Source of the DNA: Inhella proteolytica
GTDB lineage: Bacteria; Pseudomonadota; Gammaproteobacteria; Burkholderiales; Burkholderiaceae_C
Direction of reading: 5' to 3'
DNA length: 64,000 nucleotides
Assembly (NCBI RefSeq): GCF_016093275.1
Contig: NZ_JAEDAK010000007.1
Location: forward strand, 186,001 to 250,000
The stretch's first letter is position 1. Every line of letters begins with the position of its first letter. This document shows, one piece after another, positions 50,934-55,006 of this stretch. The translations under genes and the position numbers were made by a program. A model generated the notes under the pieces. The model did no database searches, was not told where the DNA came from, and worked only from the letters and a program-made list of their open reading frames with translations.

Positions 50934-52640
50934 ATGGTTTCCACGAATCCTCCCGCCCCGTCGCCCGCACCCCTGCGGCTGGGGCCTTTTGAGCTCAAGG
51001 CGCTGCTTGGAAAGAGCGAGCGCAGCATGCTCTGGCAGGTGCTGGACACCCGCAACCGCCAGGAACTGCTGGTGGCATTGCCGCGCGTCAAGCCGGCCGA
51101 CCCGCAGCAATGGCTGCAAAACGCCCGCCAGGCCGCCAAGGTCGAGCACCCGGGCTTGGCCGCGCCGGCCGAGATCGGTTACGCCGACCCCTGGCCCTAC
51201 ATCGCCTACCCGCGCAGCCTGGGCCTGACGGTGGCCGAGCGCCTGACGCGCCACAAGCAGCCCGCGCCGGTGGAAGTGGCGCGCTGGCTGGAGCGCGCGC
51301 TCGATGGCCTGGCCATGGCGCATGACGCCGGGCTCTCGCATGGTGATCCGCAGCCCTTCATGTTGCTGCTGGCCGAGGACGGCCAGGCCTGCCTGCTCGG
51401 CATCGGCCTCTTGGGCGCGGGCTGGCAGAGCAGCCCCGAGGCGCGCCAGCGCCGCCAGGCCGAGGCGCTGGAAGACGTGCTCTGCATGGGCCTGTTGACC
51501 AACCGCCTGCTGGGCGGGCGCGCCCCGCTGGAGTGCACCGACACCCGCGAGGTGCTGATGCGCCTGCCCCCGCATGGGCGCGAGTTCGTGCGCCTGGGCT
51601 GGGAGCAGACCCACCCGGTGGACGAAGCCCTGCGCACCATCGTCAACCGCAGCACCGCCACCCAGCCCTCGCAGCGCTACTTGCAAGCTCGGGCCTTCGC
51701 GCGCGCCCTGGAAGGCTGGCGCGAGCGCGTGCAGAACCCCGAAGGCGGCATGGTGGCGCAGCTGCTGGATCGTCTGAAGCGCTTCGGCGGTCTGCCCGTC
51801 ACCCGGCCCGAAGCCGTGCGCCAGGTGCTGGCCGGCGGCCTGGAGCAACGCCATGCCGACGAGCTGGCCGGCCTGGTGCTGCAAGACCTGGCACTGACCT
51901 TGGAGCTGCTGCGCCGGGTCAACCTCGCGCAGCGGCGCGAGGGCGGCGCCGGCCAACCGGCGGTGCTGAACATGGCGCGTGCCATCAGCCTGCTGGGCCT
52001 GGAGGAAGTGGCCACGGCGGCGCAATCGCTGCGGCCCTGGCCGGGCCTGCTGGCGCCCGAGCGCGTGGTGAACCTGCGCCTGGCCCTGGCGCGCGCCCAC
52101 CAGGCCGCCGAGGTGGCGCGCCGCCTGGCCCCGGCCGGCTACGACCCCGAGGTGCTGCGCTTGGTCGCGATGGCGCAGAACCTGGGGCGCCTACTGGCCC
52201 AGTACCACCTGCCCAGCGAGTGTGAACAGATCGAGCGGCTGCAGGTGCCGCCTGAGCCCACCGAGGAACATCCCAACCCGCAGCCCATGAGCGAGCGCGC
52301 CGCCGCCTTCGCCGTGCTGGGCTGCGAGCTGGACGACCTGGGGCTGGCCGCCTTGCGTCACTGGGGCCTGGGTGATGAACTGCAGGCCATGGCGCGTCGT
52401 CCGGAGCCCGATCAACCCATCCACCATGCGCATGGCGACATCGAACAGCTGCGCCTGAGCTGTGCGATGGCCAACGAGCTGGTGGACTGCCTGGTGCAGC
52501 GCGAGCCGCGCAAGCGTCGCCAGGCCATCGAAGCCGTGACACGGCGCTATGCCCGGGCCCTCGGCCTGGGCCTGGACGACGTGCAGCGCGCGCTCTTTCC
52601 TGAATCCGCACAGGCTGCCGTGCAGCACACCTTGGCATGA
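50934..52640 (+). CDS. Pseudokinase-HDOD domain protein
   Basis: The 568-residue product starts with a protein-kinase fold (about 15-265) that has lost its chemistry. The Gly-rich loop is LLGKSERSM. The Lys of the VAxK motif is absent (LLVALPRV). The HRD motif is HGD (Asp138) followed by PQPF instead of LKPxN, and DFG is replaced by LGIG. From about 275 to 480 is an HDOD domain (LVLQDLALTLELLRRVN, ISLLGLEEVATAAQ). It has no membrane segment. Its stop overlaps the ATG of the active kinase-HDOD paralogue, implying coupled synthesis. Confidence 0.85.
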   Translation: MVSTNPPAPSPAPLRLGPFELKALLGKSERSMLWQVLDTRNRQELLVALPRVKPADPQQWLQNARQAAKVEHPGLAAPAEIGYADPWPYIAYPRSLGLTVAERLTRHKQPAPVEVARWLERALDGLAMAHDAGLSHGDPQPFMLLLAEDGQACLLGIGLLGAGWQSSPEARQRRQAEALEDVLCMGLLTNRLLGGRAPLECTDTREVLMRLPPHGREFVRLGWEQTHPVDEALRTIVNRSTATQPSQRYLQARAFARALEGWRERVQNPEGGMVAQLLDRLKRFGGLPVTRPEAVRQVLAGGLEQRHADELAGLVLQDLALTLELLRRVNLAQRREGGAGQPAVLNMARAISLLGLEEVATAAQSLRPWPGLLAPERVVNLRLALARAHQAAEVARRLAPAGYDPEVLRLVAMAQNLGRLLAQYHLPSECEQIERLQVPPEPTEEHPNPQPMSERAAAFAVLGCELDDLGLAALRHWGLGDELQAMARRPEPDQPIHHAHGDIEQLRLSCAMANELVDCLVQREPRKRRQAIEAVTRRYARALGLGLDDVQRALFPESAQAAVQHTLA

Positions 52641-55006
52641 GATCCCTGGGCCGCTTCAAGCTCATCCGCAAGCTCGGCGGCGGCGCGCAGGCCGTCGTCT
52701 GGCTGGCACACGACCCGCGCCTGGACCGCGAGGTGGCGCTCAAGGTGCTGAACACCGAGGCCACCACGCCGGACGCGGTGGACGAATGGCTGCACGAGGG
52801 CCGGGCGGTGAGCCGGCTCAACCATGTCGGCATCGTGCCCGTCTACGAGGCCGATCGCTTCGACGGCCAAGCCGCGCTGGTGTTCGAGCTGGTGCGGGGC
52901 GGCACCCTCAGCCGCGTGCTGGGCGAGGGCCCGCAGCCGCCGCGCAAGGCGGTGGAGACCATGGTGCAGGTGCTGGACGCGCTGGCCTTCGCCCATGCCG
53001 CCGGCATCGTGCACCGCGACCTCAAGCCCGGCAATGTGCTGATCGACGCCCAGGGCCGGCCGCGCGTCACCGATTTCGGCATCGCCGCCCGCGTCACCGA
53101 CCAGAGCGCCGCCCAGGTGGTGGGCACGCCGGGCTACATCTCGCCCGAGGCTGCGCGTGGCGAGGCGCCGCAGCCGCGCATGGACGTGTTTGCCGCCGCC
53201 ATCATGCTGGCCGAACTGATGAGCGGCCGCCGCCTGGTGGGCGAGGCCGATGTGGCGCGCAGCCTGCACCGCACCCAGCACGATGACCTGGAGATGCCGC
53301 ACATCGACAACCCGGACGCCGACGACGCGCTGCGCGCCATCGTGCAGCGCGGGCTGGCGCGCGACCCGGTGCGGCGCTGGGAAAGTGCTTCGGCGATGCG
53401 CGACGCGCTGATGGCCTGGCTGCACGGTCCGGCCGACGCACCGGCTGAAGGTGGCGATGGCCCGGCCGGCGCCGCCGCGCTGGAGTTCCTGCTGCGCCGC
53501 ATGCGCGCCAAGGCCGATTTCCCGGGCCTGACCGCCTCGATCGAGCGCATCCAGCGCCTCACGCATTCCGATAACGAGAGCCTCGCCGGCCTGGCCAACG
53601 AGATCCTCAAGGACGTGGCGCTGACCAAGAAGCTGCTGCGCCTGGTCAACACCGCGCAGTTCCGCCATGCCGGCGGCGGCAGCATCAGCACGGTGTCGCG
53701 GGCCGTCGCCCTGGTGGGCTTTGGCGGCGTGCGCAATCTGGCGCTCAGCCTGGTGCTGCTGGAGCGCATGCAGGACCGTGCCCACGCCGCCCAGCTCAAG
53801 ACCGAGTTCCTGCGCAGCCTGATGGCCGGCAGCCTGGCGCGCGAGCTCAGCGGCGCCAGCCGCGAGGGCGAGGAGATGTTCCTCGGCGCGCTGTTCCAGA
53901 ACCTCGGCCGCCTGCTGACCGAGTTCTACTTTGCCGAGGAAGCCTCCCAGGTGCGCCGCCTGGTGCGCGAGGCCCAGGGCACGCAGGCGCCGATCAGCGA
54001 GGCCACCGCCAGCGCGCGCGTGCTGGGCATCAGCTATGAGGAACTGGGCATTGCCGTGGCCAAGCGCTGGGGCCTGCCCGATGGCCTGACGGCCATGATG
54101 CGCCGCCCGGTGGGCGACCCGCCGGACCGCCCGCCCGAGCAAGCCATCGAGCGCCAGCGCTGGCTGGCGCGCGCCGCCAACGAGGCCGCCGACGTCATCC
54201 TGCACAGCGAGCCCGACCAGGCCAAGCTGCGCCTCAAGCAGCTGGGCGAGCGCCACTCGCGTGCGCTGCGCGTGCCGGCGGACACCTTTGCCGGCGCCTG
54301 CGGCCAGGCTCAGCAAAAGCTCGCCGACCTGGCCGACGCGATGGAACTGCGCATCGACCGCAATTCGCCCGCCCAGCGGCTGATCAGCGTCACCCCCGAG
54401 CCCAACTCAGACGCCGAGTTGGCCACCGTGGTCATGCAGGCCACCGTGGTGACGGACATCCAGGCCCAGCCGCGCGAGCAGGCCTCGCAGCAGCTCGCCG
54501 CCGGCATCCAGGACATCACCGACGCCATGGTGCAGTCCAACGACGTCGGCGCGGTGCTGCGCATGATCCTGGAAACCATGTTCCGGGCGCTCAGCCTCAA
54601 GCGCGTGCTGTTCGCCATGCGCGACGCCCGCACCGAGCAGCTGATCGGCCGCTTCGGCCTGGGCGAGGGCGTCGAAACCCTGGCGCCGCAGTTCAAGGTG
54701 CCGCTGAAGCCGGCCGCCGGCCAGGCGCCGGACTTGTTCTGCGCGGTCTGCCTCAAGGCCGTGGACACCCTGATCAGCGACGCCACCCAGCCCAACATCG
54801 CCCAGCGCCTGCCGCCCTGGTGGCGCGACAAGTTCAAGGCCGGCAGCTTCCTCGTGCTGCCCTTGGCACTCAAGGGCGCGCCCTTCGGGCTGATCTATGC
54901 CGATCGCGAGCAGCCCGGCGCGATTCAGCTCGACGAGAAGGAGCTGTCGCTGCTGCGCACGCTGCGCAACCAGGCGGTGATGGCGTTTCGGCAGAGCAGC
55001 GGCTGA
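52637..55006 (+). CDS. Ser/Thr protein kinase-HDOD-GAF protein
   Basis: The 789-residue product has an intact kinase domain: glycine loop LGGGAQAVVWLA, Lys36 in VALKVL, HRDLKPGNVLI with Asp128, DFG Asp146 and GTPGYISPEA. An HDOD domain covers about 285-480 (EILKDVALTKKLLRLVNTAQ, AVALVGFGGVRNLALSLVLL). A C-terminal GAF-like domain covers about 615-780. It is cytosolic by sequence. It shares the kinase-HDOD order with the upstream pseudokinase, so the two arose by tandem duplication and probably form a complex. Confidence 0.88.
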   Translation: MRSLGRFKLIRKLGGGAQAVVWLAHDPRLDREVALKVLNTEATTPDAVDEWLHEGRAVSRLNHVGIVPVYEADRFDGQAALVFELVRGGTLSRVLGEGPQPPRKAVETMVQVLDALAFAHAAGIVHRDLKPGNVLIDAQGRPRVTDFGIAARVTDQSAAQVVGTPGYISPEAARGEAPQPRMDVFAAAIMLAELMSGRRLVGEADVARSLHRTQHDDLEMPHIDNPDADDALRAIVQRGLARDPVRRWESASAMRDALMAWLHGPADAPAEGGDGPAGAAALEFLLRRMRAKADFPGLTASIERIQRLTHSDNESLAGLANEILKDVALTKKLLRLVNTAQFRHAGGGSISTVSRAVALVGFGGVRNLALSLVLLERMQDRAHAAQLKTEFLRSLMAGSLARELSGASREGEEMFLGALFQNLGRLLTEFYFAEEASQVRRLVREAQGTQAPISEATASARVLGISYEELGIAVAKRWGLPDGLTAMMRRPVGDPPDRPPEQAIERQRWLARAANEAADVILHSEPDQAKLRLKQLGERHSRALRVPADTFAGACGQAQQKLADLADAMELRIDRNSPAQRLISVTPEPNSDAELATVVMQATVVTDIQAQPREQASQQLAAGIQDITDAMVQSNDVGAVLRMILETMFRALSLKRVLFAMRDARTEQLIGRFGLGEGVETLAPQFKVPLKPAAGQAPDLFCAVCLKAVDTLISDATQPNIAQRLPPWWRDKFKAGSFLVLPLALKGAPFGLIYADREQPGAIQLDEKELSLLRTLRNQAVMAFRQSSG

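Follow-up and report, generated by a model that had tools for sequence, protein, structure and literature searches.

A catalytically degenerate kinase-HDOD protein kept beside, and sometimes without, its active kinase-HDOD-GAF paralogue

In a 64,000-nucleotide stretch of the Inhella proteolytica genome (the window; NCBI RefSeq assembly GCF_016093275.1, contig NZ_JAEDAK010000007.1, positions 186,001 to 250,000), two adjacent genes encode related proteins in which a kinase-like region precedes an HDOD domain. The first, gene A, has lost its main catalytic residues, evolves under constraint, belongs to a single clade, lies as a rule directly upstream of its active paralogue, gene B, and persists in genomes from which B is gone; each of these features is either seen directly or strongly indicated. 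Although pseudokinases as such are already known, A appears to constitute a new bacterial pseudokinase family with an active paralogue next door. Since this dead sister is retained in many related bacteria, sometimes without its active twin, an independent function is probable. The pair is arranged as follows, with positions counted from the start of the window.

50934..52640, + strand: gene A, encoding the pseudokinase-HDOD protein P0001 of 568 amino acids (stop codon within the coordinates)
50976..51734, + strand: pseudokinase domain of A, about residues 15-267, from kinase folds aligned to the predicted structure and from the motif losses
51846..52397, + strand: HDOD domain of A, residues 305-488 (Pfam match, profile positions 19-191 of 196)
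52637..52640, + strand: ATGA overlap joining the stop of A to the start of B
52637..55006, + strand: gene B, encoding the kinase-HDOD-GAF protein P0002 of 789 amino acids (stop codon within the coordinates)
52658..53404, + strand: kinase domain of B, residues 8-256, with intact motifs
53522..54103, + strand: HDOD domain of B, residues 296-489
54548..54985, + strand: GAF domain of B, residues 638-783

The original prediction described an ATGA-overlapping pair in which a degenerate kinase-HDOD gene precedes an intact kinase-HDOD-GAF gene, and the sequence bears this out. B consists of a PknB-type Ser/Thr kinase, then HDOD, then GAF, and A has the same order without the GAF domain; the two proteins are 28% identical across 558 columns. 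B matches PknB at 2.8e-39, and the Pfam Pkinase score of A falls under the cut-off of that model, its kinase domain being strongly altered. Both proteins match the HDOD model PF08668 (cut-off 22.9 bits), P0001 at 37.6 bits and P0002 at 110.3 bits, as do 44 of 44 A members at E ≤ 0.001. Eight HDOD matches at E ≤ 1e-3 are found in the host genome, seven of them above the cut-off, along with 10 matches to P0002; of these 10, only the two of this A/B pair span kinase into HDOD. In a structure comparison, kinase folds align to residues 12-267 of the A model (the rows listed are kinases, and the HDOD half was barely probed). This alignment and the A-B identity led us to reject chance similarity of A to kinases.

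The catalytic motifs were compared in an alignment of 97 A-type and 100 B-type proteins; the 97 include L150, whose A is split across frames, and in the alignment used for A-pattern conservation L150 was dropped and P0001 added. A contig scan with an alignment as query provided 80 of 274 loci, here called the named loci, and a contig scan with a single protein as query confirmed no relative. The β3 lysine, the catalytic-loop lysine, and the DFG aspartate are each present in 0 of 178 A rows, a total in which several genomes are counted twice; the genomes of the named and unnamed loci overlap. Among the 97 A proteins, the DFG Asp column holds Gly (78), Ala (16), or Pro (3) and Asp in none; the β3 Lys column holds C, T, A, V, M, L, S, or D; the catalytic-loop Lys column holds Gln in 80; and the metal-site Asn of the catalytic loop is kept in 7. 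The HRD motif is largely kept (His in 93/97, Asp in 92/97). Near-invariant residues specific to A occur in the kinase-like half as well as in the HDOD half, the latter including W369, P370, G371, and H425. On this family-wide loss of catalytic residues, A would be classed as a pseudokinase, as was originally proposed for the first protein; homologues of it with intact motifs were sought and none was found, the named loci included.

In P0002, the Gly loop, β3 Lys, HRD, and DFG are all intact, and β3 Lys, HRD Asp, and DFG Asp occur together in 96 of 100 B-type rows and in 20 of 21 further B-type proteins from class-level and B-only family genomes, the exception being L276. The four exceptions among the 100 are second copies, three from genus g256 (L152, L153, L159) and one from L163. 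At the named loci, β3 Lys is found in 76 of 77 B rows, and the sole row without it has a gap there, in a B broken into two pieces. At L163 (6934-8731; G122), which belongs to another family, the second tandem gene shows an early motif change, NFG for DFG, and its frame stops at the contig edge.

The kinase half of A is under purifying selection in 21 of 21 pairs hand-picked as close relatives, with ratios of nonsynonymous to synonymous substitution rates (dN/dS) from 0.04 to 0.39 and a median of 0.16. Values for the kinase half of B, which is present in 18 of these pairs, run from 0.01 to 0.31 with a median of 0.135 (both medians were taken from individual pair values). This selection on A, similar to that on B, rules out a local pseudogene.

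To place the pair among related genomes, we compiled a census of 399 genomes of the host's bacterial family by hand from match tables, with two or three candidates scored per genome. A was taken as present at a best E ≤ 1e-70, and also in G300, G356, G378, G606, and G664, classed as A, and in G398, counted on 43% identity across residues 266-554; full B was taken as present at a best E ≤ 1e-150, excluding G302, G337, G602, and G661, where the match does not include the kinase, and counting G689 though its match begins at residue 172. By these definitions, A occurs in 136 genomes and full B in 141; 102 genomes have both, 34 have A only, 39 have B only, and 224 have neither, a co-occurrence odds ratio of 17. 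Rare co-occurrence had been named as a result that would speak against the pairing, and we see the opposite, since 102 of the 136 genomes with A also have full B. The search for adjacent genes that had been suggested likewise shows B as the next gene downstream of A in 76 of the 80 named loci, a count that includes L187 with its two-piece B; of the remaining four, L230 and L254 run to the end of a contig or close to it, and the other two, L242 and L245, are single. By predicted starts, A and B overlap by 4 bases in seven loci, and the spacing elsewhere runs from -1 to 203. Recurring neighbours, named from translations by eye, are hrpA, argA, purM, dnaX, recR, rho, and addA, presumably all housekeeping genes, and such a neighbourhood gave no pathway. 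In L187 (7267-9711), from a metagenome assembly, B lies in two pieces covering residues 4-141 and 212-788, either a true interruption or an assembly fault; in L150 (G354), A is split over two frames and the adjoining B frame covers residues 14-698.

Genomes with A only are informative in their own right. A repeated search of 24 of the 34, with at least 41 candidates scored in each (mostly all), found no full-length B; in a 25th genome, G671, a full-length B is present, away from A. Genus g166 (G451, G659, G600, G331) keeps A, and its B relative is an HDOD-GAF protein without a kinase, elsewhere in the genome. An HDOD-GAF relative without a kinase is also present in G462 and G351, and weaker or broken ones in G539 and G371. 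At nine A-only loci (L113, L116, L117, L123, L136, L144, L146, L148, L149), A is flanked by rho or addA on one side and by purM on the other, just as the A-B pair is elsewhere, and because A sits in this usual slot, a loss of B is probable there. These loci, together with the A-only genomes, rule out that A strictly depends on B. The originally predicted role of A as regulatory partner of its neighbour therefore stands in part: the pairing is frequent, but A cannot be solely a partner, because no full-length B accompanies it in 34 of the 136 genomes that carry it. For the 39 B-only genomes, 18 loci were examined; 15 of them (L165, L168, L267-L279) have neither A nor any probed neighbour, and the other three, from g256, lie in the usual slot, where one copy is intact and the other, which bears GAF, is degenerate. 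At L106 (9253-10804) and L115 (9127-10645), a kinase-less HDOD-GAF protein of about 510 residues is encoded just downstream of B.

The prediction that a duplication had left one copy inactivated is upheld by a careful tree of 41 proteins, from which the motif columns and the GAF part were removed. In it, the 11 A rows group as a single clade (support 100/100), and all 29 rows from the host's bacterial family, whether A or B, are likewise separated as a clade from those of the order and class (100/100); the A rows also fall into one group in a quick tree with 73 rows. An A clade inside the kinase-HDOD-GAF clade of the family is as expected from duplication within the family, which indicates that A arose by an old duplication of a kinase-HDOD-GAF gene there, losing the GAF domain and most catalytic residues. 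The class outgroup split is weak (70/60), and the tree does not settle where A branches among the B rows of the family. Matches outside the family in an order sample of 300 genomes are 23-32% identical to A, the same level as B versus A. Among 229 genomes sampled at class level, P0002 has matches at E ≤ 1e-60 in 17, two of which are the host's own genome and a family member. Tandem arrangement recurs, since tandem copies with both motif sets intact exist in other families (L160, L161, L162, L260); the combination of inactivation and wide retention is peculiar to this family among the genomes sampled. In genus g256 (L152, 7205-9521; L153; L159), the slot used elsewhere by A then B holds an intact copy followed downstream by a degenerate GAF-bearing one, so that the order is reversed. 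An independent second origin of a pseudokinase in g256 looked likely at first and is neither shown nor rejected by the careful tree, in which a branch with support 54/61 has A on the same side as the g256 copies; grouping the g256 pseudo and active copies, a group named after tree inspection, is marginally rejected (p-AU 0.038, approximately unbiased test).

We tentatively favour a reading in which A, as a non-catalytic, rigid partner, tunes B and in addition acts independently of it. Most likely A does not rely on phosphotransfer, and its two halves, pseudokinase and HDOD, would form one rigid unit; in the predicted structure, these halves are confidently placed (predicted template modelling score, pTM, 0.85, as compared with 0.46 for the B model). 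This unit may bind B through the N-lobe surface by which PknB-type kinases dimerise back to back, through HDOD-HDOD contact, or both, and might thereby set the kinase output of B on an inferred downstream target, by presumed allostery, according to what the GAF domain of B senses. The additional signalling role independent of B is suggested because A is kept where B is gone. In PknB, Arg10, Leu33, and Asp76 are residues with a role in dimers. The matching columns are kept in 78, 77, and 78 of 78 B proteins, counting Glu or Asp for the last; in A, the Arg10 column is Arg in 82/97 and the Asp76 column Glu or Asp in 94/97. According to a 2025 review, residues analogous to these PknB residues form the dimer face of MviN (PMC12599244).

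Several observations weigh against this reading. Full-length B is missing from a quarter of the A genomes, as set out above; the Leu33 column is Leu in just 21/97 A proteins, and in P0001 itself the Arg10 and Leu33 columns hold Pro and Asn, respectively. The A-B distance correlation given hrpA is 0.48 across 49 loci, but that of B and hrpA given A is higher, at 0.69, so the former is not specific and is no evidence of a complex. Finally, some nucleotide chemistry by A is still conceivable because HRD Asp is so widely kept.

A less probable yet substantial alternative is that A is a stand-alone HDOD signalling protein in which the folded kinase-like half serves the HDOD domain of the same chain as a module for docking or for sensing a ligand, the tie of A to B reflecting ancestry and neighbourhood with no complex. 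The 34 genomes in which A is kept without full-length B, nine of them with A in the same slot, fit this well, as do the high pTM of the two-domain unit and the low dN/dS of the kinase half in three A-only genome pairs (0.07, 0.22, and 0.18). Direct adjacency at nearly all named loci and co-occurrence far over chance speak for a partnership instead, although the co-occurrence must be partly discounted, because shared descent of a neighbouring pair alone explains much of it. It is unlikely that A is a substrate and scaffold of B, with phosphorylated A recruiting another protein in analogy to MviN with PknB and FhaA in mycobacteria: A-only genomes exist, a common fold is no proof of function, and any phosphosite in A is putative. 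We consider it more doubtful still that A binds nucleotide, perhaps with an unusual activity, through its Gly loop and kept HRD Asp. The second Gly-loop position is Lys or Arg in 93/97 A proteins (Lys in 80 of 80 named A loci), with Ser or Thr next in 92/97, and POMK, DYD, and DLHK proteins are described as having substitute ATP contacts (PMC12599244). A basic residue at that position is common in B too, however (Arg 22, Lys 7 of 77), and metal binding of the usual kind by A is unlikely because DFG Asp is gone throughout and the loop Asn is so rarely kept. That A is a functionless, decaying duplicate, as the lost motifs and the split A of L150 might suggest, is virtually excluded by purifying selection in every pair, by the A-specific near-invariant residues, and by the number of genomes that carry A.

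The review names the bacterial pseudokinase families ActPs1-3, GLW, CP1, DYD, and DLHK, and describes such proteins as largely unexplored by experiment (PMC12599244). B resembles PknB-type bacterial Ser/Thr kinases in its match, intact motifs, and dimer-residue columns, and differs from them in its added HDOD and GAF domains. ActPs3 proteins (MviN/Rv3910, a substrate of PknB) are actinobacterial, have lost all motifs, often carry a membrane segment, and have an activation-loop deletion (PMC12599244). A, unlike these, keeps HRD, has an HDOD domain, and adjoins an active paralogue. Three activation-segment columns of A are gapped in 59-67% of members. DLHK pseudokinases keep HRD Asp and the catalytic-loop Asn, have lost ATP- and metal-binding motifs, and are linked to helicase or nuclease domains (PMC12599244). 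A is similar in its kept HRD Asp and lost ATP- and metal-binding motifs but mostly lacks the Asn and is linked to HDOD. It also differs from GLW pseudokinases, in which GLW replaces HRD, and from DYD pseudokinases, in which the β3 Lys is changed to Arg (PMC12599244), a residue absent from that column in A. Compared by published descriptions with ActPs3, DLHK, GLW, and DYD, these four only, A misses at least one feature of each.

On the HDOD side, SadB, GsmR, HdpA, and Cj0248 carry an HDOD domain without catalytic activity and are reported to affect motility and attachment (PMC6543031, PMC11004494). They share HDOD with A, and the excerpts of these sources mention no kinase domain for them. Motility and attachment are, by this analogy, a plausible area for A phenotypes; no result here links A to c-di-GMP (cyclic diguanosine monophosphate). 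The earlier statement that no such pairing had been described agrees with the open-access library searched, in which no paper joins HDOD with pseudokinase or "HDOD domain" with "protein kinase" (subscription papers lay outside the scope), and none of its papers on HDOD and kinases concerns a kinase-HDOD architecture, judged by the title and the opening of the abstract. With confidence that falls just short of even, we propose A as the first recognised pseudokinase-HDOD family, in which a duplicated PknB-type kinase became a rigid, non-catalytic signalling unit that pairs with its active twin and outlives it, a bacterial case of a dead kinase domain acting as allosteric partner with an independent role. 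Related genomes offer four natural states (A together with B, A alone, B alone, and A accompanied by an HDOD-GAF relative that lacks the kinase), so that, with the active paralogue known and adjacent, the role of a dead kinase becomes directly testable by gene deletion in environmental bacteria. Such tests of A would give kinase-HDOD fusions their first functional context.

A promoter scan found no promoter, terminator-like sites numbered three, close to the count in shuffled sequence, and a search of plasmid sequences with P0001 gave no match. In L276 (G534), a B-type protein that stands alone, Asn replaces the HRD Asp and His the C-helix Glu, making it a possible candidate for a second kind of inactive kinase-HDOD-GAF protein.
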